Positions 970-61,737 are shown, counted from the first letter of the stretch. The stretch is 64,000 bases of DNA from Thioploca sp. (GCA_012032555.1 JAAUSR010000020.1:1-64000); one strand, 5' to 3'. Notes: generated by a model from the sequence alone, not told the origin. A program made the numbers and translations.

Positions 970-1153
970 TCATTTCTTCCAACTTTGAGAATCGCGATTA
1001 ATCAGTTGTTGTTGAAAGGCCGGATACTCCGCTTGAAGCCTTTCTGGCGTCATCGCTAAAATAGCTTGGTAATGCCGTAGCACAAAGCTTATGCCATGTG
1101 CTGAGGGCAAAGTCCAGCGGCGATCCAGGATATCTTTAAGCGCTTACATCCAA
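970..1153 (-). pseudogene. Second copy of the 3' end of the adjacent glycosyltransferase gene
   Basis: This stretch closely matches the 3' end of the intact glycosyltransferase gene at 1918-3021 (matching part about 1918-2097), in the same orientation. Translated on the minus strand it keeps an open frame to its own TGA at 970-972. The shared core reads KDILDRRWTLPSA, then LRHYQAILAMT, then QQQLINRDSQ. The last residues differ (SWKK here, NRRN in the intact gene), and there are several substitutions such as TPER for TSEQ. Nothing of the upstream part of the gene is present. The copy therefore derives from a related allele, not from a recent exact duplication. The toxin-antitoxin pair sits between the two copies. 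Confidence 0.85.
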
Positions 1154-1223
1154 AACATAAATAATGATATTATTTTGCATGGATATGGAAAGCAAACTTT
1201 TAAATCACACAGCAGGTCGAATT

Positions 1224-1430
1224 ATGCAAGCAATCGAGTTTGAAATAGATATTAATGATGAATTCATCAGAATTCCTCATTTTGAACAATTAAAAGATAA
1301 ACACGTAAAAATCATCCTCCTCTATAATGAAGAAGAGAAGCAAAATCGAATATTACCAAATATCTTCTATAATCCCGTCATAACAACTCAATATGAACCA
1401 TTTCAACGGGAAGAAATTTACCGTGAATAA
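1224..1430 (+). CDS. Small antitoxin-like protein paired with PIN toxin
   Basis: This 68-residue acidic protein begins MQAIEFEIDINDEFIRIP and continues with a KDKHVKIILLYNEEE segment. That pattern is typical of small antitoxins encoded just before PIN-domain toxins. I chose the ATG at 1224 over the in-frame ATG at 1164 because family members start with MQAIEFE-like sequence and the upstream extension is unlike them. The 3' end overlaps the start of the toxin frame by up to 38 bp, an overlap common in toxin-antitoxin operons. Expected role, from family knowledge: to bind and neutralise the toxin and probably autoregulate the pair. No DNA-binding fold can be assigned by eye. Confidence 0.6.
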   Translation: MQAIEFEIDINDEFIRIPHFEQLKDKHVKIILLYNEEEKQNRILPNIFYNPVITTQYEPFQREEIYRE

Positions 1431-1851
1431 GGTTTTTATTGATTCCAATATTTGGATTTATGCATTTATCGCCCTTGATAAGCAAACTAAACAAAATACA
1501 TGTATTCACTTATTAGAAAATCTCTATCAAGAAAAAGTTATCGTTGTTTCTACTCAGGTAATAATGGAAGTTCACTGGAATTTAATAAGAAAATATGGCA
1601 TTAGAGATGAGGATGCCAAATTAAAAATTGCGGCTGGGATATTAAAAATATCAAAATTATCAGTGACTAGCAAATCAACTTACGATTATGCTTTTGCTTT
1701 AAGGCAACAACAGAATATCTCATTTTGGGATAGTTTAATAGTTGCTGCCGCTTTGGAAAACAATTGTTCTATTCTTTATACTGAAGATTTACAGCATAAT
1801 CAATTGATCGAAAATCGGATTAAAATAATCAATCCATTTAAAGACCTATAG
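1393..1851 (+). CDS. PIN-domain ribonuclease toxin (VapC-like)
   Basis: The 152-residue frame carries the PIN landmarks in order: FIDSNIWIYAF (first acidic residue) near the N terminus, a Glu in QVIMEVHWNL in the middle, and FWDSLIVAAAL followed by ILYTEDLQH near the C terminus, which supply the remaining acidic residues. PIN proteins of this size are usually Mg-dependent RNases acting as toxins of type II toxin-antitoxin pairs. The true start may be the ATG at 1393 or a later codon just before the VNKVFIDSN segment, because the first ten residues overlap the antitoxin gene and look unlike the family. The pair stands alone between the intact glycosyltransferase gene and its duplicated tail. 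Confidence 0.8.
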   Translation: MNHFNGKKFTVNKVFIDSNIWIYAFIALDKQTKQNTCIHLLENLYQEKVIVVSTQVIMEVHWNLIRKYGIRDEDAKLKIAAGILKISKLSVTSKSTYDYAFALRQQQNISFWDSLIVAAALENNCSILYTEDLQHNQLIENRIKIINPFKDL

Positions 1852-1857
1852 CTAGGT

Positions 1858-1878
1858 GGGGTGGGCAATGCCCACCTA
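1858..1878. repeat. Short perfect hairpin after the toxin gene
   Basis: The sequence GTGGGCAATGCCCAC is a self-complementary stem with almost no loop, directly after the toxin gene and before the convergent glycosyltransferase gene. There is no T-run, so it is not a standard intrinsic terminator. A similar GGTGGGCA hairpin follows rplT at 29579. Confidence 0.5.
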
Positions 1879-1917
1879 CTAAATAATTGCTATTTGTAGC
1901 TATCGAGAAGTATTGAG

Positions 1918-3021
1918 TTAGTTTCTCCGGTTCTGAGAATCCCGATTAATCAATTGTTGTTGAAAAGTCGGATACTCCGCTTGAAGCTGTTCTGACGTCA
2001 TCGCTAAAATAGCTTGATAATGCCGTAGCACAAAGCCAATACCACGTGCTGAAGGCAAAGTCCAGCGGCGATCCAGGATATCTTTAAGCGCTTGCGTCCA
2101 AAGTCGTTGCCATAAAAGTTGTCGAAATCGCTGGTTAAATTGTTGCAGATTGGCGCTATGGAAACGGTGTAAAACCACTTGATTTAATCCCCATAATGCC
2201 GTGGTAGTAAATCGTGTTAAACGTCCTTCTGGCGTTTGGAGGTGACAAATTCTAGCTTGGAGTGCATGTAAGAGCATTCCGAGACGCGAAGCCCGATAAC
2301 ACACATCATTATCTTCATTCACGGCATAGCGTTCTAAAGTTTCTTCAAAGCGTACCTGTGTTAGAATTTCTCGCCGATAACTCATGCGGGCACCATGTAT
2401 CATCGGTACCGGATGCGTGGCCATGTTTTTCAAGGTTTCCGGTAGAGTATATTTAGGAAAAGCAAAATCATACGGAATAAAGATATCATCATCTTTGATT
2501 AATTGTTTGGCAATATAGCGGAGTTTGGCTTGATAAATTTTTATCCCATTCGCCAGCTTGGAACGAAAGGAAATCGGGTTATTGTTAACCGCCCCGGACT
2601 GTTCTTGGCTATCTGGCGGTAAGGCTTCCAGTTTCGGCATAATGCCAGCGACTTGGTGTTGGGTATCTTGAGCATAAAGGCGAATGACTTCTTGGGCACA
2701 CTCCGGATACATCAACGAGTCATCATCGATCAAAAACACAATGTCAGCAGTGGCTAAATCAATGCCTTGATTACGTTGGGCGGCTGAGGATAAGCGATTA
2801 GCCGGTAAGTATTTCCAATCGATTGAGGAATGTTGATTTGCCAAGGTTTGCATGATTTGCTGATAAGTCGCTTGCCAATCCGGACTGGCATCAATCACAA
2901 TAATTTCTTGCGGTGGTAAGGTTTGTTGGGCAGCACAGGATAAACATCGTAACAAGATAGCTTGACGTTGATACGTTGGAATCACGAGTGCCCAAGTCAG
3001 GGTTTCAGTAACGGGTGACAT
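1918..3021 (-). CDS. Family 2 glycosyltransferase
   Basis: This 367-residue protein has a GT-A fold pattern: an N-terminal VIPTYQRQAILLRCL strand-helix, an IIVIDASPDW strand, and a metal-binding acidic triad in VFLIDDDSLMYPE around residues 95-107. It has no obvious membrane segment, so it is probably cytoplasmic or membrane-associated and transfers a sugar from a nucleotide donor to a polysaccharide or glycolipid. The acceptor cannot be told. Its start lies only 25 bp from the divergent transporter gene at 3047. The last 60 codons occur a second time, diverged, at 970-1153, with a toxin-antitoxin pair between the copies. Confidence 0.85.
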   Translation of the reverse strand: MSPVTETLTWALVIPTYQRQAILLRCLSCAAQQTLPPQEIIVIDASPDWQATYQQIMQTLANQHSSIDWKYLPANRLSSAAQRNQGIDLATADIVFLIDDDSLMYPECAQEVIRLYAQDTQHQVAGIMPKLEALPPDSQEQSGAVNNNPISFRSKLANGIKIYQAKLRYIAKQLIKDDDIFIPYDFAFPKYTLPETLKNMATHPVPMIHGARMSYRREILTQVRFEETLERYAVNEDNDVCYRASRLGMLLHALQARICHLQTPEGRLTRFTTTALWGLNQVVLHRFHSANLQQFNQRFRQLLWQRLWTQALKDILDRRWTLPSARGIGFVLRHYQAILAMTSEQLQAEYPTFQQQLINRDSQNRRN

Positions 3022-13165: not shown

Positions 13166-14674
13166 TTAGCGAAACAAAGGTAAAGTAGTTGAATCGATAG
13201 GAGTTGATTCTGGTTTAGCTTGAGTTTTGGCCAATTCTCTTCTTAACGCAAATTCTTCGGCTTCTTGAGCATTGTTAAAAGCATGACGTTCCAGTGCTTT
13301 ATCCAAAGCATCATAAAGTCCAGCACGTCGACTGAGGGTTCGATATTGTTGTTCGAGGTGGAGTAATTCGCGAATAAGTTGAAATTGCAATCCTTCCTCA
13401 TCACCGTTGGCTTGACACACGGTTTTTAATAAATCCAAATCTGCTACTTTAAAAATTGACTGATTTGCTAACCGCTTGCCCGGATAACTTTGTCCCGTAG
13501 CAGCTTCATAAAGCTTGGGTAAATTATCCTCAATTTCATGTTTTTCCATCACCCAAAGGCGACGGATTTCTTCTAATTCGGCTAGACTAATCAATTCCAG
13601 TGATTTTACTGCTGGTGGTCCGTGTTCACGTACCGTTTGTTGTGCCTTGAGGAGTGCTGTTAACAGTTGTTCACGATAATTTTGTTTATAAGGTCCATGT
13701 ACCAGCCGCTGGTTGAAAATCATTAAACGACCATTCATGCGCCGGAAATCCCGCTGGTGTCGATCATCTTTAATGTCTAACCATTGATTACGCAATTCCA
13801 CTAACGGTAACAGCCACTGCTTATCTTCGTCATTTTGAATCATCGCCTGCATCGATTTATCTTGTTCTACCAAAGTACAAACATAGCAACCAAAACGACT
13901 GTCACCACAACTTGGCGTACTGGTATCAACTACTAAAGGACATTCCCCACCGCTAGTGGCACCACGATACAAATTAAAAAGATCTTGATTCGAGTATCCC
14001 CACGGATTCTTCACTTCGATAAGATATTGCCACACCTCATCATTGCTCCACTCCGCAATTGGCGTATAAATCCAACTATTGGGTAAACTGGCATGAGTTG
14101 CTAATTGCTCTCGCGTGCTGGTTTGTTCATATTTAGCCATATTAGCGGCTCGAACTGTGCTTTCAGCTTTACGAGTGCCCAATACTAAAATTACTTGACC
14201 ATTTTGCCGAACGACTTCATTAATAAAGCGATTCGAGGGATTAATTTTCAACCGACTCGTGCACCAGCGAAACTTTGGGCGTGGCGCTGGATAACCACGT
14301 CCGATGAGATTAACCCAAAACCGAGCCGTTACTTCTGGGAGTAAGCGTTGTGGCAAAATGGGCAACTGTTGTTTAGTTGCCGCTGCTTGCATCGTAACTA
14401 ATGACTGCTCAACCCATTGTGCTACAATAGGATTTTCAACCAACGTGTCGGTACTAATCACATAAACCGGCTTAATTCTTTTTTCCCGTGGCAATTTTTT
14501 GAGCGCATACCAAACTAATTGCAAAGCCGCAGTTGAATCTTTGCCGCCGCTATAACCAACTACCCAAGGAATCGCGTCGCTAAGATAAAGTGTTTGCGTT
14601 TTCTTAAGCAATGCTGAGAGAATCTTTTTCAAATTGGTAAGTAAGGTTAATTTAGATTGATTTTTAGATGTCAC
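13166..14674 (-). CDS. dndC: DNA phosphorothioation sulfurtransferase DndC
   Basis: This 502-residue protein of the PAPS-reductase/PP-loop ATPase superfamily has the nucleotide-binding PP-loop GYSGGKDSTAALQLV near residues 40-53. It also has a cysteine cluster in RWCTSRLKINP, GGECPLVVDTSTPSCG and RFGCYVCTLVEQ, which in DndC binds a 4Fe-4S cluster. DndC takes sulfur from a cysteine desulfurase and works with DndD and DndE to replace a non-bridging backbone oxygen of DNA with sulfur. The overall layout and size fit DndC well. Unusually, dndD and dndE are about 15-20 kb away on the other strand and no dndB is seen, so the usual dndBCDE operon is broken up here. Confidence 0.9.
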   Translation of the reverse strand: MTSKNQSKLTLLTNLKKILSALLKKTQTLYLSDAIPWVVGYSGGKDSTAALQLVWYALKKLPREKRIKPVYVISTDTLVENPIVAQWVEQSLVTMQAAATKQQLPILPQRLLPEVTARFWVNLIGRGYPAPRPKFRWCTSRLKINPSNRFINEVVRQNGQVILVLGTRKAESTVRAANMAKYEQTSTREQLATHASLPNSWIYTPIAEWSNDEVWQYLIEVKNPWGYSNQDLFNLYRGATSGGECPLVVDTSTPSCGDSRFGCYVCTLVEQDKSMQAMIQNDEDKQWLLPLVELRNQWLDIKDDRHQRDFRRMNGRLMIFNQRLVHGPYKQNYREQLLTALLKAQQTVREHGPPAVKSLELISLAELEEIRRLWVMEKHEIEDNLPKLYEAATGQSYPGKRLANQSIFKVADLDLLKTVCQANGDEEGLQFQLIRELLHLEQQYRTLSRRAGLYDALDKALERHAFNNAQEAEEFALRRELAKTQAKPESTPIDSTTLPLFR

Positions 14675-25726: not shown

Positions 25727-26347
25727 TTTACTTCTCCTTTAATAGGAACCGCATAAATCATACATGACGTTACTAAAATAGCTGTTATTCTATTTAGTTT
25801 CATAAAGTTATCTCCATTAGAGCTTTCATGAAATTGACTAATATTAAAGTACGTAAAGACATTATTTTTGTGTTATGATTGTGAAACGGAATTAATTAAG
25901 CTACTTTAATCCAAAATCTTAGTACTGCTGGACTAACTAAGATTAAATATCATAAAGAAATTAACTTATTCTTTTTCCTACCTAAATTACTTATCAATTT
26001 TGTTTCACGACATTATAACTGCAAATTAGTTGCCAAAAAAAACCATCGTTTTCTTATAGATTAATAATTAAACTAAAATTTATTACAACTAACTGAAATT
26101 AAATATAAATATAAATATAAATAGCGCGTTGTAACAAAGTTTAATTCTTATTAAACTGATGTCATCATAAACGAATTTATTTGCGGATTGCGGTGAAAAA
26201 TGCAAAACCATTGCGTTTTGCTTGGGATAGGCTAGTTTTTGTAACAGATTGTTACAATTCAGTTATTATCAGTTATCAGTTTTTTTTCAGTAGAAAGTAG
26301 GTCGACCTACTTTTAAAATTGATAGGTGGCTAGCAATATTAAGAAGC
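25727..26347. other. Gene-free stretch with a short tandem repeat
   Basis: No gene seen in about 620 bp. A 6-bp tandem repeat (ATAAAT, about four units) lies at 26101-26122. A TTATCAGTTATCAG repeat near 26265 resembles the one at 20956-21076. Ribosome-binding and promoter sequences for the gene ending at 25726 should be near 25727-25850 on the minus strand; TTCTCCTTT at about 25732-25740 is complementary to its AAAGGAGAA ribosome-binding site. Confidence 0.5.
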
Positions 26348-26376
26348 TTGAATCCTATTTAAGAGTATAGTATAGT
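26348..26376 (+). promoter_or_regulatory. Sigma-70 type promoter for tRNA-Val
   Basis: TTGAAT at 26348-26353 and TATAGT at 26371-26376 are separated by exactly 17 bp, and GCGCG follows the minus-10 box. A GC-rich discriminator is characteristic of stable-RNA promoters under stringent control. The tRNA gene starts 14 bp after the minus-10 box. Confidence 0.8.
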
Positions 26377-26390
26377 GCGCGTTCCTTAAG

Positions 26391-26465
26391 AGGCGCGTAG
26401 CTCAGTGGTAGAGCACTACCTTGACATGGTAGTGGTCGGTGGTTCAATTCCACTCGCGCCTACCA
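26391..26465 (+). tRNA. tRNA-Val (anticodon GAC)
   Basis: A full cloverleaf can be drawn. The acceptor stem AGGCGCG pairs with CGCGCCU, the D-arm is GCUCAGUGGUAGAGC, the anticodon stem CUACC/GGUAG closes the loop UUGACAU with anticodon GAC, and the T-arm is GGUGG-UUCAAUU-CCACU with one G-U pair. CCA is encoded. The anticodon reads GUC and GUU valine codons. Confidence 0.95.
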
Positions 26466-26486
26466 GTTTGGTTTTCTATTCTATTT

Positions 26487-26511
26487 AAGCACTTGTGAAA
26501 GTGCTTTTTTT
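26487..26511 (+). terminator. Intrinsic terminator or attenuator between tRNA-Val and thrS
   Basis: AAGCACTT pairs with AAGTGCTT around a four-base loop (26487-26506) and is followed by a T-run to 26511. It ends only 14 bp before the thrS start codon, so it ends the tRNA transcript and could also act as a leaky terminator or attenuator controlling read-through into thrS. Confidence 0.85.
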
Positions 26512-26525
26512 GTGGATCGAGTTGT

Positions 26526-28435
26526 ATGCCTCTCATTACCTTGCCCGATGGTAGTCAACGACAATTTGAACAACCGGTAACAGTAGCACAAGTAGCTACC
26601 AGTATTAGTGCCGGCTTAGCTAAAGCAGCGATAGCTGGAAAAATTAATGATCGTTTAGTCGATACCACGACCGTGATCGAAACAGATGTTTCTTTAACCA
26701 TTATCACCGATCGCGATCCAGAAGGCTTGGAGATCATTCGCCATTCTTGCGCTCATCTACTGGCACAGGCCGTTAAGCGGTTATTTTCAACCGCCCAGGT
26801 TACTATCGGTCCGGTGATTGCGGATGGTTTTTATTATGATTTTGCTTATGAAAAACACTTTACCCCGGCAGATCTAGAAAAAATTCAAGCCATGATGACA
26901 GAATTAGCGGCTGAAGATTTTACGGTAACCCGTTCAGTCATGCCACGGGAAGAAGCGATTAACTTTTTTCGTTCTCAAGGTGAAGAATATAAAGCACAAA
27001 TCATTGAAGCTATTCCATCACCAGAACCGATATCTTTATATCAACAAGGTGAATTTATTGACTTGTGCCGTGGACCACATGTTCCCAGTACCGGCAAACT
27101 CCAAGCCTTTAAATTAATGAAATTAGCGGGTGCTTATTGGCGAGGTGATTCTAACAATGAGATGTTACAACGGATTTATGGGACTGCTTGGGCAAAAAGT
27201 AAAGATTTGCAACTTTACCTCCATCGCCTGGAAGAAGCCGAGAGGCGAGATCATCGTAAACTGGGTAAACAATTAGACCTATTTCATGTTCAAGAAGAAG
27301 CGCCAGGCATGATCTTCTGGCACAACCCAGGTTGGACAGTTTATTTACAAATCCAGAATTATATTCGCCACCTCTTGCGTCAACAAGGTTATCAAGAAGT
27401 GCATACGCCGCACTGGTAGATCGTTCATTGTGGGAAAAATCAGGTCACTGGGATAAATTTGGCAAAGAAATGTTCAGTACCCATTCGGAAAATCGGGATT
27501 ATGCCATCAAACCTATGAATTGTCCTGGTCATATTCAAATCTTTAATCAAGGTCTCAAAAGTTATCGAGATTTACCCTTGCGATTAGCTGAATTTGGTTC
27601 CTGTCATCGTAATGAACCTTCAGGCACTTTACATGGGCTACTTAGAATTCGCAATTTTGTTCAAGATGATGCCCACATTTTCTGCACCGAAGCGCAAATT
27701 CAAAGTGAAGTTTCTAATTTCATTGACTTATTACTTAAAGTGTATGCTGATTTTGGCTTCCATGAGGTACTGATCAAGTTATCAACTCGTCCCGAGCAAC
27801 GGATTGGTGGTGATGAAGTTTGGGATAAAGCGGAACAGGCTTTGGAATTAGCTTTAAATCATAAAAAATTAGATTGGCAGTTGCAACCGGGTGAAGGTGC
27901 CTTTTATGGCCCTAAAATTGAGTTTGCGCTAAAAGATTGTTTGGGTCGGATCTGGCAATGTGGAACCATCCAAGTTGACTTTGCTATGCCTGGTCGTCTC
28001 GGTGCGGAATATGTGGCAACAGATGGTAACAAACAAGTTCCGGTCATGTTACATCGAGCGATTTTAGGTTCGCTAGAACGATTTATTGGGGTTCTCATCG
28101 AAGAATATGCTGGCGCTTTTCCGGTGTGGTTAGCACCGGTACAAGCTGTCATACTGAATATTACCGATCAACAAGCCCCCTATGCTAGACAAGTCGAGGC
28201 TCATTTAAGTAAAGCTGGTTTTCGCGTTAATTGTGACTTGAGAAATGAGAAAATTGGGCTTAAAATTCGCGAACATACTTTGCAAAAAGTACCTTACCTA
28301 CTGGTCGTCGGTAAGCGAGAGAGTGAAACCCAACAAGTTGCCGTACGGTTGCGGAACGGTGAAGATCAAGGTGCTATGTCGTTAGACGCTTTTACCGCTC
28401 AACTCCGTGCGGATGTTGCTGATTATATTATCTAG
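26526..28435 (+). CDS. thrS: Threonyl-tRNA synthetase, frame broken by one missing base
   Basis: Two overlapping frames (26526-27419 and one ending 28435) make a full-length ThrRS of about 636 residues if one base is added between 27412 and 27413, giving [20 protein letters not shown] in place of a premature TAG. Domains: TGS (about 1-62), second additional (editing) domain with [11 protein letters not shown] and [12 protein letters not shown] (about 75-225), class II core with motif 2 [19 protein letters not shown] and motif 3 [15 protein letters not shown], and a C-terminal anticodon-binding domain. It charges tRNA-Thr and is essential, so the break is almost certainly a sequence error. The ribosome-binding site before 26526 is weak. 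infC follows after 12 bp. Confidence 0.93.
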
Positions 28436-28447
28436 GAGGACAGTTAT

Positions 28448-28963
28448 ATCGCTGCTGAAAAACGCACGCGCCTAAATGAAGAAATTACGGCACCGAAAGT
28501 CAGATTGATAGATACCGAAGGTGAACAAGTTGGTATCGTGTCACTCCGTGAGGCGCAAGAGAAAGCTCAACAAGCGGAATTAGACTTGGTAGAAATTGTA
28601 CCAACTGCTAAACCCCCCGTATGCCGTATCATGGATTACGGTAAGTTTCTATTTGAACAAAATAAGAAGCAACATGCGGCTAAGAAAAAACAAAAGCAAG
28701 TACAGATTAAGGAAATTAAATTCCGACCAGGTACTGAAGAAGGAGATTATCAGGTCAAACTACGCAACCTGATGCGTTTCCTAGAAGATGGGGATAAAGC
28801 CAAAATCACTTTGCGTTTCCGTGGACGGGAAATGGCTCACCAAGAATTAGGACAAGGTTTGCTAAAACGTTTAGAAACGGATTTAGCTGATTGTGGAATA
28901 GTTGAGCAACAACCCAAAATGGAAGGACGGCAAATGGTCATGGTGATTGCCCCTAAAAAATAA
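28448..28963 (+). CDS. infC: Translation initiation factor IF-3, starting at a rare ATC codon
   Basis: The frame extends upstream of the first conventional codon (TTG at 28505) through [21 protein letters not shown], the conserved IF-3 N terminus, back to an ATC at 28448. AGGAGG at 28434-28439, overlapping the thrS stop, is 8 nt before it. No ATG, GTG or TTG lies between that Shine-Dalgarno and the conserved sequence. IF-3 discriminates against such codons, so its own non-AUG start gives autoregulation, as established for E. coli infC (AUU). The protein of 171 residues contains the [20 protein letters not shown] segment and a C-terminal domain ending MVMVIAPKK. Confidence 0.93.
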
Positions 28964-29002
28964 ACTGATTAATCGTGATTTTTTAATGCGGAGTATTTTA
29001 AC

Positions 29003-29200
29003 ATGCCTAAATTAAAAACAAACCGTGCTGCGGCTAAGCGCTTTCGGCGTACTGCGTCGGGCGGCTTCAAACGCAGTCAAGGTTATCGTCGACATATTCT
29101 TACTAAGAAAAGCAGTAAACGTAAACGCCAATTACGCTCACCTAGCATGGTAGATAAAACCAATGTTGCCATGGTTAACCGTTTACTACCCTACGCATAA
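29003..29200 (+). CDS. rpmI: 50S ribosomal protein L35
   Basis: This 65-residue basic protein begins [20 protein letters not shown] and contains [17 protein letters not shown], the standard L35 sequence. It lies 39 bp after infC and 12 bp before rplT in the conserved thrS-infC-rpmI-rplT order. In enterobacteria L20 represses rpmI and rplT translation; whether the needed RNA structure is present cannot be judged by eye. Confidence 0.97.
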
Positions 29201-29212
29201 GGATGAAAACAG

Positions 29213-29569
29213 ATGCCTAGAGTAAAACGTGGTGTAACAGCACATGCTCGACACAAGAAAATTTTGCAAGCCGCTAAGGGTTATCGTGGGTTTCGTCGCA
29301 ATGTTATTCGAGTTGCTAAACAAGCCGTCACTAAAGCGGGACAATATGCTTATCGCGACCGCCGGCAACGGAAACGAGAATTTCGCGCTCTATGGATTGT
29401 CAGAATTAATGCGGCTGCTCGTGAACATGGATTATCTTATAGTCGCTTTATCAACGGCTTACACAAAGCCGGTATTGAGATTGATCGAAAAATATTAGCA
29501 GAATTGGCGGTCTTTAATAAAGATGCTTTTGCGATTTTAGCACAGAAATCTAAAACCAGCTTAGCTTAA
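29213..29569 (+). CDS. rplT: 50S ribosomal protein L20
   Basis: This 118-residue protein begins [18 protein letters not shown] and carries [19 protein letters not shown] and [21 protein letters not shown], all diagnostic of L20. It binds 23S rRNA early in large-subunit assembly. AAGGATG precedes the start. In many gammaproteobacteria pheS and pheT follow; here the operon ends at a hairpin. Confidence 0.97.
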
Positions 29570-29578
29570 TGAGTTGAA

Positions 29579-29601
29579 GGTGGGCAGTGTTGTTGCCCGC
29601 C
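29579..29601 (+). terminator. Hairpin after rplT
   Basis: GGTGGGCA and TGCCCGCC pair with one G-T type mismatch around a short loop, 10 bp after the rplT stop. There is no strong T-run (CTCTTAAGTT), so termination may be weak or Rho-assisted. The stem resembles the repeat at 1858-1878. Confidence 0.5.
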
Positions 29602-30070
29602 CTCTTAAGTTAAAAAATTTCGTAGGATAAGTAAAGCACAGCAAAACCCATCAAATCTAAGAACAACCGCATATTCAACCTGATATCATAGTCATCCGTT
29701 TTTCATGAATTTCCTCTGCTAATTCTGCTAACATTTTGCCAGTTTCCTTTTTAGTAAAATCAGACGATAGCGGCTTAGCCCGTTGAAGTCGGATTTGCAT
29801 CCGACTGTTTCAATCAACTGCCTTATGATAAAATGCCAAAATAGTGACAACCCCGGTTCTAGAAAAACCCGCGACTGGAACCCCATATGACCCCGGAAGT
29901 AAAGCAATTGAAACCACAACTGGGTAAGAGGTTGAATTGGAACGAAGCGAGGCTAGATTTTTAGCCAGATTGTTCATTGCATTACTCCAAGTCCAAACGG
30001 TGAACTTAGCTGAGAAGGAAGGGAGATAAATATACCCCTGTTTTTGCTAAGGTACCTAATTTTATAACGC
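29602..30070. other. Gene-free stretch before dndD
   Basis: No credible gene in about 470 bp. A 20-bp palindrome AGTCGGATTTGCATCCGACT lies near 29789-29808. A minus-strand stretch near 29699-29760 translates as KKETGKMLAELAEEIHEKR, an antitoxin-like scrap without start or partner. GGAAGGGAGA near 30017-30026 may be part of the dndD leader. Confidence 0.45.
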
Positions 30071-32047
30071 ATGATTTTTGAAGAATTGATTTTACATAAC
30101 TTTGGCATTTACCAAGGTCGCCATGTTTTGCAATTAACTTCTCCCGCTCCCCAACGAACGATTATTCTCCTCGGTGGACTCAATGGTAGTGGTAAGACGA
30201 CTCTGTTAGAGGCTTTACAACTTATTCTTTATGGTAAATTTAGTAAATACGCTAATCAGAGTCATGCCGATTATATTGATTATTTACGCCAAATGATGAA
30301 TTATCATGCTAGTCCTCACCAAGGTACCGCACTCGAACTCGCGTTTAAGCATTATCGTGAAGGTAAAGAAGAAATTATTCGGGTTCAACGGGCGTGGTCG
30401 CTAAATAATAATCAGTTGCAAGAAACAGTGGTCGTGCAACGCGATGGCGTTTTTGATCCAGTCATCACTGATCATTGGTATGATTATGTTGAGGAATTCA
30501 TTCCGGCACGCATTGCTAATCTATTTTTCTTTGATGGCGAAAAGATAGCGGCTTTGGCTGAGGCTGAACCGGCAGCAGAACTTTTAAAAACGGGAATTTA
30601 TGCGTTACTGGGCTTAGATTTAGTGGAACGATTAGTGACGGATTTATTCTTAGTAGAACGTAGACGAAAAGCGCAATTGCAATCACAGCTCAGTCGGGAG
30701 CAGATTAATTTATTAGCCGAACAATTTAAGCAGCTAAACCAACAATTAAACGCTATTAATCAGCAACAAATTCAGTTACAAGCTCGGTTAGCACAAGCTC
30801 AACAACAATATAGCGAATTGTCAGATAAATATCGCCGGGAAGGGGGAGAACTGGTTGAACAAAGAACCGATTGGGAAACTCAATTAGAAATAACGCAGCA
30901 ACAACAAGTTCAGCTTGACGAACAACTGCGCGAATTGGCAAGCGGTGAAGCACCTTTACTGTTAATTACTGAACTGCTTCACCAAACTGAAGCACAAGCC
31001 CTTCAAGAGCAAGCAGCGAAACATAATCGAGAAATTCATACCGCATTGGCAGCGCACAATACTAATTTACTGCAATTTTTACAACAGTATCCTCTTGAAC
31101 AAGCCACTTTATCGGCAATAGAAAATTTCCTTACTATCGATCAAATAACTCGTCAACAATCACTGCAAACCGAATGTTATCTTCAAGTTGAGCCAGCGAT
31201 TTTTGCTGATATCTCTGTGAGTAAGTTACAATCTATTCAAACGATAGTTCAGGAATTGCTTGCCCAAAGCGAAAATTTACAAGAGGAAATTAATCGCTAT
31301 GAACGCCAATTACTGAGTATTCCGGATCCAGAGCGTTTAGAAGCCATTACTCAACAGCGACAGGCGTTACAAGCGGAAATCGATCAATTACAATCTCAAT
31401 TAGCGGCATTGGCACAACAACATCACCAACTGCACCATGAAATGACCCGCAAACAACATGAACTTCAGCAAGCTTATGAAATCGAATCCAAGGAACAATT
31501 TGCTCATGAAATCACTCACCGCGTGATTAAACAAGCTGTGCAAGTACGCAATACGCTGGTTCAATTCAATCAAGCCATGCTAACCAAATCAATTCGCCAG
31601 TTAGAGACATTAATTTTAGATTGCTTTAAGCAGTTAGTTAGAAAAAATAACTTGCTCCAAGACTTGGTTATCGATCCGCAGCATTATGGGCTAACACTTT
31701 ATACTTGCAATCACGAGATATTAACCCCCAAAAGTCTGTCAGCGGGAGAAAGGCAACTATTGGCTATCTCAATTTTGTGGGGATTAAGTCGAGCGTCTGG
31801 TTATCCGTTACCAGCGGTTATTGATACCCCACTCAGTCGCTTAGATAGCATTCATCGCAATAATTTAGTTAAACATTATTTTCCACAAGCGAGTCATCAA
31901 GTCATTTTGTTATCAACCGATGAAGAAATCAATGCGATTCATTATCGTCATCTGCAACCACACATTGGACGTGAATATCATATTTCTTACCAAGAAGAGC
32001 AACAGACTTCGATTATCAAGCCGGGTTATTTTTTTCATGGCGAGTGA
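30071..32047 (+). CDS. dndD: DNA phosphorothioation protein DndD (SMC-like ATPase)
   Basis: This 658-residue protein has a Walker A in GLNGSGKTTLLEALQLILYG (residues about 35-54) and RIANLFFFDGEKIAALAE. A long Gln-rich coiled coil (about 190-510) separates the N- and C-terminal halves, and the C-terminal ABC part carries the signature SLSAGERQLLAISILWGL and Walker B AVIDTPLSRLD. This is the SMC/Rad50-like layout of DndD, which hydrolyses ATP and probably handles nicked DNA during sulfur insertion with DndC and DndE. Its last 57 or so codons are present again, diverged and damaged, at 35229-35398 directly before dndE. Confidence 0.9.
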   Translation: MIFEELILHNFGIYQGRHVLQLTSPAPQRTIILLGGLNGSGKTTLLEALQLILYGKFSKYANQSHADYIDYLRQMMNYHASPHQGTALELAFKHYREGKEEIIRVQRAWSLNNNQLQETVVVQRDGVFDPVITDHWYDYVEEFIPARIANLFFFDGEKIAALAEAEPAAELLKTGIYALLGLDLVERLVTDLFLVERRRKAQLQSQLSREQINLLAEQFKQLNQQLNAINQQQIQLQARLAQAQQQYSELSDKYRREGGELVEQRTDWETQLEITQQQQVQLDEQLRELASGEAPLLLITELLHQTEAQALQEQAAKHNREIHTALAAHNTNLLQFLQQYPLEQATLSAIENFLTIDQITRQQSLQTECYLQVEPAIFADISVSKLQSIQTIVQELLAQSENLQEEINRYERQLLSIPDPERLEAITQQRQALQAEIDQLQSQLAALAQQHHQLHHEMTRKQHELQQAYEIESKEQFAHEITHRVIKQAVQVRNTLVQFNQAMLTKSIRQLETLILDCFKQLVRKNNLLQDLVIDPQHYGLTLYTCNHEILTPKSLSAGERQLLAISILWGLSRASGYPLPAVIDTPLSRLDSIHRNNLVKHYFPQASHQVILLSTDEEINAIHYRHLQPHIGREYHISYQEEQQTSIIKPGYFFHGE

Positions 32048-32381
32048 TGAGCCGATCTTGAACCTGACTCCCTTTAAACTCACCATAGCATCAACCGATA
32101 GTAAACAAACACAAGATATATTCGTGCTGATCATAATCTTGTCATTATTGTGGTAAACTTTTCAATTGTTAAATCTAAGCAAGATTATGACCTCAATTTT
32201 GGGCAGTACTATAGGTCGTAGCCCTATCGCCACCAGGAATTGCAACGGCTTGTTACGCTAAAATCGCTATTCCGGTTTTAAGTACTACCTCATTTATAGA
32301 AACAGTCACCTTGCCTAGGAATTATTGTGGAATAATTACTAAAACAATTCGTTTACTTCTAACTTAAAGGATAGATATCAC
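32048..32381. other. Gene-free start of the block inserted between dndD and dndE
   Basis: Sequence similarity to the second dndD tail stops at about 32045. No gene seen in the remaining 330 bp. AAAGGATAGATATC before 32382 provides a ribosome-binding site for the next gene. No terminal inverted repeat, integrase gene or tRNA is visible at this junction. Confidence 0.5.
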
Positions 32382-32618
32382 ATGGGAGACGCAAAAACCA
32401 GAGCTTTAACGAAAACCTTTATACTCGGTGGAGCAAGTGCATTGCTCTATCTCATTTTATGGTTATTATCAGAACACATTATGGCTTATTCGCAACAAGG
32501 GAAATGGTTTTTTATTATTCCAATTGCGATTGCTTTTGTATTTTCTGCTGTGCATGGTGCCTTTACCGGTTATTTTTGGGATGTATTGGGAGTAAAGGCT
32601 AAGTCTGTGAAAAAGTAA
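32382..32618 (+). CDS. Small inner-membrane protein upstream of TauE-UspA fusion
   Basis: This 78-residue protein has two hydrophobic segments (about residues 14-30 and 42-66) with a polar, Lys-rich tail ending VKAKSVKK. It has a good ribosome-binding site (AAAGGATAG) and ends 27 bp before the transporter gene, which has its own AAAGGAATTAG. I do not recognise a named family. The close spacing and shared membrane location suggest it is an accessory subunit of the exporter. Confidence 0.7.
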   Translation: MGDAKTRALTKTFILGGASALLYLILWLLSEHIMAYSQQGKWFFIIPIAIAFVFSAVHGAFTGYFWDVLGVKAKSVKK

Positions 32619-32645
32619 GGATTAAATTAAAAGGAATTAGCTACA

Positions 32646-34922
32646 ATGATGAGACATTATTTGACCTGGGAAAATTTAATTATCGCTACCTTGTTTATTG
32701 GGTTACAAGTAGGTATTTGGGCAGTGTATGCTGATCCACAAATAGGAACAGAAACAACGCCTACCACATCAACAGCCTTGGTGTTTGAGCCGGCTGAACC
32801 CAAATTAGAAACGGGGGAAAAGATTCCTTTGAGCCTTCATGGTGCTAGCGGCGATATTGTTTGGCACTCGCTTAAAGGCAAAATTGAGGGGCGGGGTGAT
32901 CAAGTTTACTATTTAGCCCCAGCGGCACCCGGTAAAGATACCATAACGGTGACCGATGCTACCGGTAACACCGCCACTCTGACAATCGAAGTTAGCGGTT
33001 TTCTCGATTTACAAATCCATAATGTTTTATTTTTGCTCTTTGTTGGCTTTGTGGGTGGATTAGTAAGTGGTTTTATTGGTTCTGGCGGGGCATTCGTCCT
33101 TACACCAGCCATGATGAGTATGGGCGTACCGGGTATCGTTGCAGTGGCGAGTAATATTTGTCATAAATTCCCTAAAGCCTTAGTTGGTGCGATGAAACGA
33201 GCTAAATATGGGCAAGTTGATGTCAAACTCGGAATTATTATGGGAATTTCGGCAGAGATTGGTGTGTTATACGGTGCCCATATCCAGGAAATGATTAAAA
33301 CTCGAATGGGTGATGCCGGTTCTAATCTGTACGTATCGGTCGTATTCGTGGTGGTATTGGCGATTGTTGGTGGTTACGTGTTACGTGATGCTTTGAAGAT
33401 ATACCGTTCGGGTAATATGGCTGAACAAGAAGAGGTAACCAAACTAGCTCGGTGGGTGCAATCGATTCATATTCCCGGTACCATGATGTATTTTAATAGT
33501 CTCAAGGCACGAGTATCCGTACTGATCACAATTCCATTAGGCTTTGCTACTGGTATGCTCGCAGCGACGATTGCCGTCGGTGGCTTTATTGGCGTACCTT
33601 CCATGATTTATGTTTTAGGGGCACCGAGCTTAATGGCTTCCGCTTCGGAATTAGTCATTGCTTTTGTCATGGGATTGGGAGGCTCCATTAAATTTGCTTG
33701 GAGCGGTTTTGTTGACATTCGGTTAGCGATGATTATTTTGGCGGGGTCACTATTTGGCATCCAACTTGGGGCAATTGGCACCACTTATGTTAAGCCTTAT
33801 ATGGTCAAATTGGTTATGGGCATTATCATGGTATTGGTATTGTTGAGTCGTGCCCTAATGGTGCCAATTTATTTATCTACTTTAGGTTACATTGATAAAA
33901 TTGATACCGGGATAGCGAGTGTTGTTAGTAATATTAGTTTTAGCATGTTGGTGGGGGCATTACTAACGGGTGCTATCATTGTACTCTATGCGCTGTGGTC
34001 AGGATGGCGAGCCCATGCAGTTGAGGAACAAGCTGCCGAAGTAGCTGCTATGAGAACATCTTTCTCTCTACCAGAGTCAACTATCGCTTCCCAAGGTGTT
34101 TTCGACCGCATGTTAGTCGCTTCTGATACGTCGGAATTTAGTGCCGGTGCCCTACGGCAAGCGATTAATCTCGCTCAGCAAGATATCAACCAGTTATATG
34201 TGATGTCAGTACTTGTCAGCAACCCTGAATATGAATCTTTAGTGCCGCAACTGCTGCAAAACGAAAAACAACCTTTATTAGCACATCTAGACCAGGTCAA
34301 GGTGCAAGCACAACAGGCTGGGGTCAGTTGTGAAGCTTTATTGCGTTATGGGACTACCCCCTATGAAGAACTCGTCGCCGAAGCGGAAAAAAGTCGTATG
34401 AGTGTGATTGTAATGGGTCGGCGTGGCAAGAGTGGCGTGATGCGCACCATGATGGGCAGTTCTACTGCTAAGGTCATTGGGTTCAGTCCGGTTAATGTAC
34501 TAGTCGTGCCACGTGCTGCCCCCACTATCAGTGGTCAACCGATTGTGGTCGGTGTAGACGGTTCACGCTATAGTGAGCGCGCAGCGGCTGTAGCTAAACA
34601 AATTGCCCAATTTCTCAATAATGCACCGGTGGTAGTCGTTTCAGTTGTCTACGCTCAACATGATGCCGCCCGTCGTGAGGAAGCTAACCAAGCGGTACAA
34701 CAAACGGTTGATTCTTTCCAAGCAGAAGATATCAAAGCAGAAGGTATCGTTGTCGAAGGACGTGCGGCTGAAGCATTAGTAGGCGAAGCCACTCGTCGCA
34801 ATGCTGACCTTATTGTGGTTGGTACTCATGGTCGGACTGGATTAGAGCGAGTGTTAGTCGGTAGTGTATCTGAACGCATTATTGGTTTAGCTTCCTGTTC
34901 AGTGTTGGTAGTGAAAACCTAA
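32646..34922 (+). CDS. TauE/SafE sulfite exporter-like protein fused to two universal stress domains
   Basis: This 758-residue fusion has an N-terminal membrane segment (about 9-28), then an Ig-like periplasmic domain of about 90 residues (EPKLETGEKIPLSLHGASG to TATLTIEVSG). A TauE/SafE membrane domain of seven to nine segments (about 125-455, with GFVGGLVSGFIGSGGAFVLTP) is followed by two cytoplasmic UspA domains (about 480-620 and 625-758). Their nucleotide-binding ends read VIVMGRRGKSGVMRTMMGSST and LIVVGTHGRTGLERVLVGSVS. TauE proteins move sulfite or organosulfonates across the inner membrane; UspA domains bind ATP or AMP. The fusion suggests energy- or stress-gated anion export, which is inference. 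Confidence 0.85.
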   Translation: MMRHYLTWENLIIATLFIGLQVGIWAVYADPQIGTETTPTTSTALVFEPAEPKLETGEKIPLSLHGASGDIVWHSLKGKIEGRGDQVYYLAPAAPGKDTITVTDATGNTATLTIEVSGFLDLQIHNVLFLLFVGFVGGLVSGFIGSGGAFVLTPAMMSMGVPGIVAVASNICHKFPKALVGAMKRAKYGQVDVKLGIIMGISAEIGVLYGAHIQEMIKTRMGDAGSNLYVSVVFVVVLAIVGGYVLRDALKIYRSGNMAEQEEVTKLARWVQSIHIPGTMMYFNSLKARVSVLITIPLGFATGMLAATIAVGGFIGVPSMIYVLGAPSLMASASELVIAFVMGLGGSIKFAWSGFVDIRLAMIILAGSLFGIQLGAIGTTYVKPYMVKLVMGIIMVLVLLSRALMVPIYLSTLGYIDKIDTGIASVVSNISFSMLVGALLTGAIIVLYALWSGWRAHAVEEQAAEVAAMRTSFSLPESTIASQGVFDRMLVASDTSEFSAGALRQAINLAQQDINQLYVMSVLVSNPEYESLVPQLLQNEKQPLLAHLDQVKVQAQQAGVSCEALLRYGTTPYEELVAEAEKSRMSVIVMGRRGKSGVMRTMMGSSTAKVIGFSPVNVLVVPRAAPTISGQPIVVGVDGSRYSERAAAVAKQIAQFLNNAPVVVVSVVYAQHDAARREEANQAVQQTVDSFQAEDIKAEGIVVEGRAAEALVGEATRRNADLIVVGTHGRTGLERVLVGSVSERIIGLASCSVLVVKT

Positions 34923-34974
34923 ATAGTACTAAATAAACGTATAGTAACATTAAATACGTAGTAATTTCTTAATA

Positions 34975-34998
34975 AACAAGGGGTTTAAACCCCTTGTT
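34975..34998. repeat. Perfect 24-bp palindrome after the exporter gene
   Basis: The half site AACAAGGGGTTT is followed by its exact complement. It lies 52 bp after the exporter stop and may form a hairpin that ends or protects the transcript; no T-run follows, so a role as an intrinsic terminator is unsure. Confidence 0.65.
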
Positions 34999-35228
34999 AC
35001 TCAAAAAACTTAACAAAAATGACAGAGTGGCAATCCTTAAAATTGGTTAGTTTTCAAATCAATATTTTACTATCTTTACTATCTATTGGTTTTTCTTAAG
35101 CAAAGTGGAAATCTTTTATAGAAACTTACAAACCTATAGAGAAATTATTTATGAAATGCTCAAAAAAAGTACAAAAAATTTTTCTTCTTTTAAAAAGACG
35201 AGGGAAGAATTTTTTTATTCAAAAAGAT

Positions 35229-35398
35229 ATAAGCATTATTTCTCGCAAGCCAGTCATCAAGTAATTTTGTTATCCACGAAGAAATCAATGCGATTCATTA
35301 TCGTCATTTGCAACCGCATATTGGACGTAAATACCATCTTTCTTATCAAGAAGATCAACAGACTTCAATTATCAAGCCGGGTTATTTTTTTCCATAGC
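35229..35398 (+). pseudogene. Remnant of a second dndD gene: last 57 codons before dndE
   Basis: This stretch matches 31873-32045 in dndD at about 90 percent by my hand alignment. Most differences are silent (HYFSQASHQVILLS, EEINAIHYRHLQPHIGRKYHLSYQED against HYFPQASHQVILLS, EEINAIHYRHLQPHIGREYHISYQEE). A net loss of four bases near 35272 breaks the frame. Similarity starts abruptly at about 35229; upstream is AT-rich sequence without match. The mostly silent divergence shows that this is the tail of a separate, once-functional allele rather than a fresh duplicate. It joins directly to dndE as in a normal dndDE operon. Confidence 0.85.
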
Positions 35399-35399
35399 G

Positions 35400-35789
35400 A
35401 TGGTAGTTATGATTATTGAAACCGTTCGATTATCGGAAAAAGCCAAAACGCAACTCATTTTACTTAAACGTAAAACTGGCATTCAAAATTGGAATGTACT
35501 GTGTCGATGGGGTTTTTGTTTTTCCTTACGACAACCTTCTATACCACCGGCGGAGAAAATTCTCACCGCTAGCTCAGTAGAAATGACTTGGAAAGTATTT
35601 GCCGGTGCTCATCCGGAACTTTATTTCGCTTTGTTAGTGCAACGTTGTTATCAGGATGGCTTAGAACTATCTGATAAGGTTGTTACTGAACAATTTAAAT
35701 TACATTTACATCGAGGAATTGCTTATTTGGCAACCAATGCTAAACTAACGAATATCGCTACGTTACTTCACTTGATAATCGATAGATAA
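35400..35789 (+). CDS. dndE: DNA phosphorothioation protein DndE
   Basis: This protein is 129 residues from 35400, or 126 from the ATG at 35409. The conserved DndE pattern IIETVRLSEKAKTQLILLKRKTG and IQNWNVLCRWGFCFSL opens the protein, followed by SVEMTWKVFAGAHPELYFALL. DndE is a small helical protein that binds nicked DNA and is required for phosphorothioate formation with DndC and DndD. The gene is preceded by a dndD tail that is only a remnant; the intact dndD is 3.35 kb upstream. It therefore probably no longer shares a transcript directly with dndD unless read-through crosses the inserted genes. Confidence 0.88.
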   Translation: MVVMIIETVRLSEKAKTQLILLKRKTGIQNWNVLCRWGFCFSLRQPSIPPAEKILTASSVEMTWKVFAGAHPELYFALLVQRCYQDGLELSDKVVTEQFKLHLHRGIAYLATNAKLTNIATLLHLIIDR

Positions 35790-35875
35790 AATGCAAATTA
35801 AGAAAATTTTTTAAAAATAAAAAAATTATGTAGGTTTGCTTGAGCGAAGCGAAACCAAACTAACCGAATTCGCAT

Positions 35876-38800
35876 TTAAGCGCTATTGTTTAACATTTGA
35901 ATAAACTCTTGTTCTGGCATAGGACGTCCAATGAGATAACCCTGTACCTCATCGCATTTAAGTGATTTTAAGAAAATTTGTTGTGATTTAGTTTCTACAC
36001 CTTCTGCTATAACAGCCAACCGCAGACTTCGCGCTAATGCAATGATGGCTTTAATAATACTCATATCTTCTTTATTGTTGGGCACATCTCGAACAAAACT
36101 TTGATCGATTTTAAGCTTATCAATCGGAAACCGTTTTAGATAGCTTAATGAAGAATAACCGGTGCCAAAATCATCGATGGCCAATTGCATCCCCATTTCT
36201 TTCAATTGATGCAAAATATGATTAACTTCATCAAAATCGGTTATTAACAGACTTTCGGTTAATTCCAATTCGAGTAGAGTTGGATCAATACAGGTTTCAT
36301 CAATAATTTTTCCAATCCGTTTAATGAAATTATCTTGTTTAAATTGTCGCGAAGATAAATTAACTGACATTCTCAACAAAGCTTGACCTTGCTCACGCCA
36401 ACGTTGATATTGCAGACAAGTTCGTTGTAATACCCATTCTCCTATGGGTACAATCAACCCGGTTTCTTCTGCTAAAGGAATAAAGCGATAAGGTAATACT
36501 AAACCCATTTCCGGATGTTGCCAGCGTAATAAAACTTCTGCACCAACAATATGGCCGCTAGTTAGGTGCAATTGTGGTTGATAATACAAGACTAATTCTT
36601 CTCGATCTAAGGCATGACGTAATTTGGTTTCCAAAATTAACCGCTGATGAGAAAGCATATTGAGACGAGCAATATAAAATTGATAATTATTTTTACCATT
36701 TTCTTTAGCACGATACATTGCCATATCAGCATTTTTTAATAACGTATCAACTTCTTTACCATCGTTAGGATAAAGGCTGATACCAATACTCATGGTGATA
36801 AAAGTTTCTTGCCCATTTAATTTAAAGGCAGATAAACTCATGGCTTTCAGTATATTTTGCGCAAAAATTTCTACATCTTTGATATTATTTATATTTTCTA
36901 GCACAATCGCAAAATCATCACCACCTAAACGCGCAATTGTATCGGTTTTGCGTAAACATTCTGTTAAGCGGCTGGCCACTTTTTTCAGTAATAAATCTCC
37001 CGTTAAATGTCCCCAAGTATCATTAACATACTTGAAACCATCTAAATCTAAAAACATGATAGCGACTAATTCATTGTGTTGTTGTGCGTAATATAAAGCA
37101 CGATTAGCCAATTCATAAAATAAAGTTCGGTTAGGTAATCCGGTTAAATCATCGTAATGGACTAAATAAGCGAGTCGTTGTTCAGTTTGTTTGCGTGAAG
37201 TGAGATCAGAGAAAATACCTAAGTAATTGGTAATTTGATTGTGTTCATCACGGATAACACTGATATGTAACCATTCTAGGAAAATCTCGCCATTTTGACG
37301 ACGATTCCATATTTCCCCTTCCCAATGTCCAAAATGGAGAATAGCATTCCACATAACTTCGTAAAAGTCACTTTTATGTTTACCCGATTTTAATAGCTGG
37401 GGTGTTTTCCCCATCACTTCTTTAGCCGTGTAACCGGTAATTTTAGTAAACGCTTTATTAATGCCTATAATTTGGGTATGAGCGTCAGTGATACAGATGG
37501 CTTCCGCGCTATTTTCAAATACCTTAATGGATTGGCGTAGTTTATCTTCTACCATTTTCTTTCGGTAATATCTTCAAAACAACCTAATACGCCAATTACT
37601 TGATTTTGTCTATCCTGCAGTGGGACTTTATTCATTTCTAACCAAAGGCGGGAATTATTTTCTAATTGGACAGATTCAACTTGTCGGTAAGCATATTGGC
37701 CATCTGCTACAATGCAACGGTTAAGCGTTTCAAAAAAGGCATGCCCTTCTTGTTGGTAAAGCATTAAGTCAGTATCCGTTTTGCCGACAATATCTTCTAC
37801 TTGTTCTAAACCAACAATGCGAGCGTAATTCTGGTTACAACCTAAATAAACCGCATAATTGTCTTTCCAGAAAATAAATTGGGGAATATTATCTATCACG
37901 AGACGCAACATGTGTTCAGACTGCTGCAAAGCTTCTTCATATTGTTTGCGTGCCGTGATATCACGGCTAATTCCAATGAGGCCCAATACTTGTCCATCGA
38001 TTGCAAAGAAAGGTGCCTTTAAAGTGTCAAATAAACATTCATGACCATCAGGATAAGTACCCCATTCTTCATGAGCATGCGGTTTACCGGTTATCACCGT
38101 TTGTTTATCAGTTTCCCAACAAAATTGCGCCTTTTCCGGTGGGAATAAGTCAAAATCACTTTGTCCTATCAATTCTGAGCGATTGATGCCTTTGAATTCT
38201 TCAAAAGCCTGATTACAACCTAAATACTTACCTTCACAGTCTTTGTAAAAAATCAGGTCCGGAACAAAATCAATTAAATTGCACAGCAATGCCCTTTCAT
38301 GTAATAGTTCTTGAGTGCGTTTTTGAACGCGTTGTTCCAATAGAGCCTGAGTAGAATGAATTTCCTCAAATCGAGCTTGCAGTGATTTAGCCATTGATTT
38401 GAAATTATGGGTTAATGAATTGATTTCACTCACCCGGCTTTGAGGCCAATGAATGACTTGGTTTAGCTCTAAACGAGTCGATAAGTTATCAGTGATATAG
38501 GCTAACTTCTGTAAAGGTGAAATCAACCAGCGGCTAATAAAAACTGAGAGGATTAGGCTAATGAAAGTAATGATAGAAATGATAGCTAATTTGCTGACAT
38601 ATAAATTTTGCCAGGATTCCAAATAAGGTCGTATCGGCATTTCAATAACTAACGTCAATGGCAATGATTATGTACCGGAGTATGCTGTACATAAAAGGCT
38701 TGACGCCAACGTAAAATGGGATGAACCACTGCTTGAGGAAAAGCCGGATAGACTATTGAATTGAGCCATTTCCATTGAGTTGATGAAAAATCACGGAAAT

Positions 38801-39959
38801 GATCATAATAGCTTAAGCGCTTTAAATCGGTTCGAGTAGAATCAATAACAATCCCCTGTTCATTGGTTAAAGTGATATCAGTATCATTCGTAAGAGAGTG
38901 AATAGCATGTATTTTATGAAGTTTAGTTATCAACTGAAAGTAAATTAAAAGCACACCGGTTACTTTACCATCCGCACCACGGATGGCAAACGCATGTGCC
39001 ATCACGGGTATTTCACTACCCTGATCTATCCTAATAGTATTAAAGGTTAAGACTTGGGTTGTATTCAAGACGGACTGAAAGAGCGGTTTATGTAAAGCTG
39101 GCGAATAGATATTTAATTCATTGGTCGGTTGGTGATAGTTGAATAACAAACAACCTTGAGCATTCAGTAAAGTGATATCTAAAAATTCTGGGAATGAACT
39201 CATTAATTGCTTAGCTTGCTGAGCTAACTCAGTTGAATTTTGCCAATGGGCTTGTGTAACGAAGGGGGCAAATTTTTGTAAAGATTCAACCTGTCGCTGA
39301 TATAACGATTGCAGATCATTTACTATATAAATAGACAATGTATTGAGATCCGTTTTTATTTTGGCTTCGACTTTGTCTACAATAAGCCAGCCATTAAAAA
39401 TCATCGTCAGTAAGGTCGGTAATAGAACAAAAATACTAATTAAATTCAGTATAATACGTTGCAATGCTAGTTGATAGGTTGTGATTGGTAATCTAGCCCA
39501 TTGTCTTAAAGGTAAAAAGGTAATTATTAAACAGGCAATAGACGCATTAAAAATAGCATTTACCAGAAATTTCAATAGAATTAAAGCAATTGGGATAGTA
39601 TCTGGTGGAAGAGTATTAATATAAAGTACCCACATGATAGGTAGTCCTAAACCTAACCAGAAAATACTTTCTAACAACAGTAAATGACTACTATAACGTC
39701 GCCAAGCTAATCCAATAAAGACCGCTTCTAAAGTGAAAACAATTAATTCATTAGGGTGTCCCCATAAAAACCAGTTTGGTGTATTAGCGAATATTGCTAC
39801 CGCTAATCCCCAGCTAACTCCAAATAAATCAATTATTAATAAGGTAGTAATGCTACCAAAGACAAAATCTATTCCAAAGAATAAAGGTAAACTAAGGTAA
39901 TTCCCGAGCATACTGAGTATGCTAAGTAGTATCAATATCAGATACGATCGTTGTTGCAA
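35876..39959 (-). CDS. Giant membrane PAS-GGDEF-EAL cyclic di-GMP protein, frame broken by two missing bases
   Basis: Three consecutive minus-strand frames form one protein of about 1361 residues if one base is restored near 38664 (joining PVHN to LPLTLVIEMPIRPYL) and one in the T4 at 37555-37558 (DITERKMVEDKLRQS). Order: MASE-like membrane region of about six to eight helices (1-190), a Cache-type periplasmic sensor (about 220-450), a transmembrane helix, HAMP, a short coiled coil, three PAS domains, a GGDEF domain with the variant ARLGGDDFAIVL, and an EAL domain with the variant GAEVLLRWQHPEMG and intact DDFGTGYSSLSYL. It should make or break c-di-GMP in response to an external and an internal signal. 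The direction of activity is unknown. Confidence 0.85.
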
Positions 39960-41317: not shown

Positions 41318-41331
41318 CGAAAAAATACTGA

Positions 41332-41808: not shown

Positions 41809-41848
41809 CATTTTATTCAACTTAACTTACTTTAAAAGGAGACAATCT

Positions 41849-42085: not shown

Positions 42086-42119
42086 AAATTATTGAACTCG
42101 CGATAATTTTTTAGTGGCG

Positions 42120-42156: not shown

Positions 42157-42200
42157 TTCAAGATAAACCAGAACCGATGCAATTAAACCAATAGAAACAA

Positions 42201-61727: not shown

Positions 61728-61737
61728 CTTTAAGTTT

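Follow-up and report, generated by a model that had tools for sequence, protein, structure and literature searches.

Split of dndD and dndE in a Thioploca genome

The window analyzed here, a 64,000-nucleotide stretch of a Thioploca sp. genome (JAAUSR010000020.1:1-64000), encodes DndC, DndD, and DndE of the Dnd phosphorothioate DNA modification system, all three of which exceed the cut-offs of their families (Table 1; the cut-off for the DndD family, TIGR03185, is 245.85 bits). DndD and DndE have been described as an always linked dyad (PMC10853773). This adjacency fails in the window, where ∼3.35 kb separate the dndD stop from the dndE start, and dndC lies 15 kb from dndD on the opposite strand, adjoining an antiporter gene. 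As a preliminary description of the sequence had recognized, dndD and dndE are split by a block that lies between two diverged copies of the dndD 3′ end.

We compared the genome of the window (G000), a 5.55-Mb draft of 198 contigs, with that of a sister species of the same genus (G001), which is closed in a single contig of 4.81 Mb (G+C content of 0.415 in a 400-kb sample). Housekeeping genes of the two are ∼91% identical, and amino acid identity is 84.6% for DndD and 92% for DndE. The dN/dS ratios between the species are 0.104 for dndC, 0.153 for dndD, and 0.093 for dndE, and values in this range (0.09 to 0.15) indicate that purifying selection still acts on all three genes. The dndB regulator profile TIGR03233 has no match in G000 and only a sub-cut-off match in the sister species (32 bits versus a cut-off of 328).

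Two further features of dndC were observed. The C-terminal part of DndC matches the Pfam family Sp-DndD (PF20306; 6.5e-07), the small protein of certain Dnd systems. MITE-like palindromic interspersed repeats surround dndC in both species, at positions 15175 to 15327 of the window and at 10225 to 10289, 10801 to 10849, and 11154 to 11222 of the sister species' dnd locus (L043), and many further copies occur in G000.

A frameshifted remnant of dndD abuts dndE

The two tails, the intact gene's own (D1) and the remnant next to dndE (D2), form a direct repeat, both copies being in the same orientation (87.4% identity over 175 columns; E about 1e-54). Without gaps, 147 of 163 columns are identical (90.2%), in agreement with the earlier estimate of about 90 percent. 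D2 carries a 4-nt deletion that shifts its frame. A search of the G000 assembly found no copies of the tail beyond D1 and D2.

Differences between the copies had been called mostly silent, and 12 of the 16 do fall at third codon positions; this bias, however, is due largely to the intact copy. In an alignment of D1, D2, and the intact dndD tail of the sister species, the five changes private to D1 are all at third positions (0/0/5 for codon positions 1/2/3), whereas the eight private to D2 are distributed 4/0/4; 11 are private to the sister species. Because its private changes show no codon bias, D2 appears to change like a pseudogene. The pattern, resting on few sites, fits a dead copy that drifts beside a constrained one. 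The final bases of D2 probably serve as the leader of dndE, since even the shortest remnant, that of the sister species, still has the bases abutting the dndE start.

The intervening block is a native operon with changed neighbors

Between the tails lies an operon encoding a small membrane protein and a TauE-Usp fusion protein. Positions 32330 to 34933, including 50 bp upstream of the operon, are collinear with positions 1338101 to 1340722 of the sister genome (contig C1) at 81% DNA identity. The operon is single copy in each genome. In the sister species a short Usp-like gene lies upstream of it, and the block in the window starts at the position corresponding to the end of this gene. The best-named relatives of the TauE-Usp protein are from Thiomargarita metagenome-assembled genomes. 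Because its collinear single-copy ortholog sits elsewhere in the sister genome, we interpret the cargo as a native operon that has changed neighbors; judged by sequence, it is not recognizably foreign. The 3′ part of the block (34923 to 35229) has a G+C content of 0.244.

No integrase, replication, or mobilization gene was found among the open reading frames (ORFs) of 32048 to 35229, in line with the preliminary description, which had seen no integrase. Ku has no match in either genome, and the block has no more consensus promoters or terminators than expected by chance. The peptide encoded after dndD (MASDEPILNLTPFK...) was considered as a possible start of dndE or as a dndE of foreign origin. 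This was rejected, since the peptide has no Pfam match and the DNA similarity to dndE does not exceed that of shuffled sequences, our benchmark for short-fragment alignments at the dnd and glycosyltransferase junctions. No convincing traces of dndD or dndE were found beside dndC, before the intact dndD, or after dndE.

Table 1. Features of the window discussed in the text
Feature	Position	Strand	Evidence or remark
Glycosyltransferase 3′-end remnant	986..1154	-	91.1% identity to 1934-2102; keeps ancestral downstream flank
PIN-type toxin-antitoxin cassette between glycosyltransferase 3′ ends	1155..1933	+	PF01850, 2.4e-12
dndC, detached from dndD	13166..14674	-	TIGR03183, 674.7 bits
dndD, intact (copy D1), 658 aa	30071..32047	+	TIGR03185, 592.9 bits
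dndD 3′ end, left copy of repeat	31870..32043	+	87.4% identity over 175 columns to 35230-35400
Spacer after dndD	32048..32329		Similarity to dndE within the range of shuffles
Relocated native operon	32330..35003	+	Collinear with G001 C1:1338101-1340722
78-aa membrane protein ORF	32382..32618	+	First gene of the operon
TauE-Usp fusion gene	32646..34922	+	TauE and Usp Pfam matches
Palindrome 3′ of tauE-usp	~34978..35003		Palindrome in the same place in G001
AT-rich spacer before remnant	35004..35229		dndD homology not above shuffles
dndD 3′-end remnant (copy D2), frameshifted, abutting dndE	35230..35400	+	Direct repeat of 31870-32043
dndE, intact	35400..35789	+	TIGR03184, 117.5 bits; PF08870, 127.4 bits; likely start 35409

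The sister species has the same architecture with other cargo

At L043 the order is antiporter gene, dndC, a DUF559-like ORF (named by eye), dndD, cargo, and dndE, with 4.8 kb between dndD and dndE. Far from being split without a dndD tail, the sister species is split yet keeps one. Its cargo encodes two electron transfer flavoprotein (ETF) subunits, an ETF-quinone-oxidoreductase-like flavoprotein with its ferredoxin-like partner, and a rubrerythrin-like protein. This ETF/fix-type region has a G+C content of 0.508, versus 0.41 for dndD, and no DNA match in G000.

This cargo is bordered by pieces of both dndD and dndE. Directly 3′ of dndD lie 30 bp of internal dndE (L043 8166-8195) that match the sister species' own dndE at 29 of 30 positions and the dndE of the window at 25 of 30. 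Directly 5′ of dndE, a piece of mid-dndD (21/21 bp) is fused to the dndD terminus (20/20 bp). The fragments beat every shuffle (scores of 45 versus 31, 42 versus 25, and 44 versus 25) and lie on the same strand as the intact dndD, the ETF genes, and the intact dndE. Because fragments of each gene flank the cargo on the expected sides, the dndD-dndE pair would once have been present twice, and it is well supported by these alignments that both genes were duplicated in part and that each lost one copy to decay. Duplication and loss is likely in the Thioploca genome of the window as well. Both fossils stand on their expected sides in the sister species and the dndD fossil alone does so in G000; the fragment boundaries at the dndD/dndE junction differ between the two.

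Probably one event in each lineage

Seven family loci (L045, L047, L049, L050, L051, L052, and L057) serve as outgroups in which dndD and dndE are contiguous; in an eighth (L044) the genes are ∼274 bp apart. Of the tail sites polarized with 13 family sequences, eight unite D1 and D2 of the window, three unite D2 with the sister species, and one unites D1 with the sister species. Within the last 20 bp of the tail, both copies in G000 read AAGCCG and both copies in the sister species read AATCCC. Given these counts, the species-specific tail bases, and the different cargo, the simplest reading is that separate events took place in the two lineages after they split. Pooled with the glycosyltransferase case described below and assuming a clock, the duplication would, as a rough estimate, be half as old as the split of the species.

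The genes are on different contigs in four further genomes, G003 and G027 (10 and about 40 contigs) and the fragmented assemblies G032 and G023. No dndD tail scoring above shuffles was found upstream of the solitary dndE in any of the four. In G032, one locus (L162, contig C203) has a dndC-like C terminus followed directly by dndE, with dndD on another contig.

A second scar and operon-scale rearrangement

A comparable scar lies near the start of the window. The last 169 bp (1934 to 2102) of a glycosyltransferase gene (1918 to 3021, minus strand) recur at 986 to 1154 with 91.1% identity, and a PIN-type cassette separates the two ends; a homologous PIN cassette is found elsewhere in the sister species (C1:2566434-2566870). 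The flank beyond the remnant matches the sequence 3′ of the sister species' glycosyltransferase gene (score of 100 versus 29 for the best of 500 shuffles), whereas the flank beyond the intact gene does not. Because of this match, the remnant would be the ancestral gene end, and the cassette would have entered with or beside the duplicated end. This case adds weight to a link between insertion and duplication.

The surroundings of the dnd genes are rearranged as well. Over 20 kb of the window (24100 to 44050), six blocks (thrS-rplT, dndD, tauE-usp, dndE, sensor/GGDEF genes, and moaC-DEAD) map to six separate places in the sister genome at up to 92% identity. Since these neighboring blocks are so scattered, the dndD/dndE split can be regarded as one case of operon-scale rearrangement. 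A scan for scars (1.25 Mb of G000 and 0.4 Mb of G001) returned 20 direct and 1 inverted low-copy near repeats; some adjoin toxin-antitoxin or Rpn-like genes, and several are tandem paralogs or internal repeats. Two or three cases are insufficient to establish a genome-wide process.

We also noted Rpn-like ORFs (by eye) between diverged direct repeats of ∼70 to 80 bp at two places in G000, C46:129343-130645 and C22:70805-72003.

Origin of the split

We read the dndD/dndE split region as the scar of a rearrangement and not as a functional element. On balance, we think it somewhat probable that insertion or relocation of a block was coupled to a local direct duplication and followed by reciprocal loss. 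From an ancestral order of dndC-dndD-dndE, a block with the membrane protein gene and tauE-usp would have arrived at the dndD/dndE junction in the lineage of the window after its split from the sister species. The same event would have duplicated the dndD end in direct orientation, originally together with part of dndE if the sister species is a guide, giving an intermediate of the form dndD1-(dndE1)-cargo-dndD2-dndE2. Selection would then have retained dndD1 and dndE2 as the working copies while the spares decayed, dndE1 without trace in G000 and dndD2 to its frameshifted ∼170-bp tail. In the sister species, a comparable event at the same junction would have brought the ETF/fix-type operon. 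Because Ku and integrase are missing, the joining step was most plausibly a RecA-type unequal exchange or a transformation-like recombination between chromosome copies. We infer both this biochemical route and the unity of duplication and insertion in one event.

Several points weigh against this reading. In G000 no trace of a first dndE copy that exceeds shuffles was found after dndD1, and the duplication of dndE proposed there is carried over by analogy, solely from the sister species. The product would look identical if an unrelated insertion had come long after the duplication. The 5′ limit of D2 may be either an original boundary or a boundary of decay, and the clustering of copies by species could be mimicked by gene conversion. 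Inferences of age and tree draw on ∼25 variable sites in 163 columns. Short direct repeats 0.3 to 10 kb apart are also present in loci of other genera; for this reason, and because the scan includes tandem paralogs and internal repeats, we claim no enrichment of scars.

The preliminary description had offered two models, a collapsed tandem duplication and an incoming segment that replaced most of the old gene. The fragments of both genes in the sister species and the polarized counts (8/3/1) favor duplication. An incoming segment is possible, though unneeded, because the D1/D2 split appears only about half as old as the split of the species and the remnant resembles a pseudogene. In its explicit form, one-sided homologous recombination with imported DNA (homology-facilitated illegitimate recombination in transformation), a donor fragment with a dndD 3′ end and cargo would have crossed over inside the resident dndD, its far end being joined illegitimately there, so that the 3′ part of D1 would be donor sequence and D2 the resident tail beside dndE. 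We consider this unlikely but credible: it predicts exactly the arrangement of G000 and that of the glycosyltransferase scar, whose remnant has retained the resident flank, the ∼10% divergence of D1 and D2 is what a related donor would give, and both the process and related transformation-driven duplications have been discussed (PMC3784515). D1 and D2 are nevertheless mutually closest in the polarized count, the neutral-looking private changes of the remnant make a foreign donor unnecessary, and the cargo is an ordinary ortholog of an operon in the sister species. A two-step history, in which an old partial tandem duplication (dndD-dndE′-dndD′-dndE) formed a dispensable stretch where unrelated operons landed later, would draw on the wide occurrence of tandem and adjacent DndDE pairs (PMC10853773) and would make a different cargo in each species natural. 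It is rather improbable, since both species would need an insertion that hit between the copies, and the glycosyltransferase scar one that hit right at their ends; moreover, the copies cluster by species and not by position, which disfavors a shared ancestral duplication unless gene conversion intervened.

The mobile-element and technical explanations fare worse. Campbell-type single-crossover integration of circular DNA carrying a dndD tail and cargo would produce the succession seen in G000 of intact gene, cargo, and 5′-truncated copy, but we rate it very unlikely: 32048 to 35229 holds no replication, integrase, or mobilization gene, such integrations are reversible between their repeats, yet 10% divergence shows old age, and the cargo-side fragments in the sister species derive from both genes. 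An integrative element, as suggested in the preliminary description, that inserts site-specifically and replaces the 3′ end of the target gene would account for a gene-end duplication around cargo. It is disfavored by a block without integrase, by housekeeping-type cargo that differs between the species and in the window is a native operon (81% identity to the sister species), by sister-species fragments of mid-dndD and internal dndE that do not look like a fixed attachment site, and by repeat lengths and targets that vary (dndD and glycosyltransferase); its probability is slight. An assembly artefact might be suspected in a 198-contig draft, but with copies that differ at 16 sites and an indel, and a comparable arrangement in a single-contig genome, it is barely conceivable.

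A more sweeping proposal is that blocks, whether operons or toxin-antitoxin cassettes, move in this genus without Ku or integrase, and that every landing duplicates ∼100 to 200 bp at the end of the target gene; this would be a main route of the operon-scale shuffling between the two species, with the three scars (two dnd and one glycosyltransferase) as its fossils. We regard this proposal as doubtful.

Relation to known systems

The closest known system is the DndDE core pair (TIGR03185/TIGR03184). DndC, DndD, and DndE are full-length members of their families and under purifying selection, but dndD and dndE are 3.35 kb apart in G000, 4.8 kb apart in G001, and on separate contigs in G003 and G027. 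Repeated separation of genes still under selection implies that linkage is not required, and the splits in G003, G027, G032, G023, G000, and G001 are exceptions to the always-linked dyad. Duplication of DndDE pairs is itself a recorded theme (PMC10853773). Disordered dnd operons in cyanobacteria likewise retain the genes in broken order; there this has been read as a primitive or long-diversified state (PMC8569181), whereas here the outgroups and fossils point to secondary breakage whose route is still partly visible.

Direct duplication around a novel junction through unequal chromatid exchange is known from transformation merodiploids of Streptococcus pneumoniae (PMC3784515). Those duplications are mostly 100 to 900 kb, unstable, and located at large repeats, unlike the small, old, decayed ones described here, for which such a process in this organism is hypothetical. 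The polyploid sulfur bacterium Achromatium also has interrupted operons and shuffled synteny, the interrupters being transposable elements, an RNase/RNase-inhibitor pair, and an endonuclease (PMC5587575). Transposases are implicated there; the junctions described here are marked instead by duplicated gene ends, with no adjoining transposase. The scars preserve what appear to be intermediate stages of operon splitting, and because the two sister species carry different cargo at a shared junction, the double hit becomes a testable question.

Elsewhere in the window, positions 60064 to 63252 hold a possible defense cluster that comprises an AriA-like ATPase, a type II-like DNA methyltransferase, and two small ORFs.
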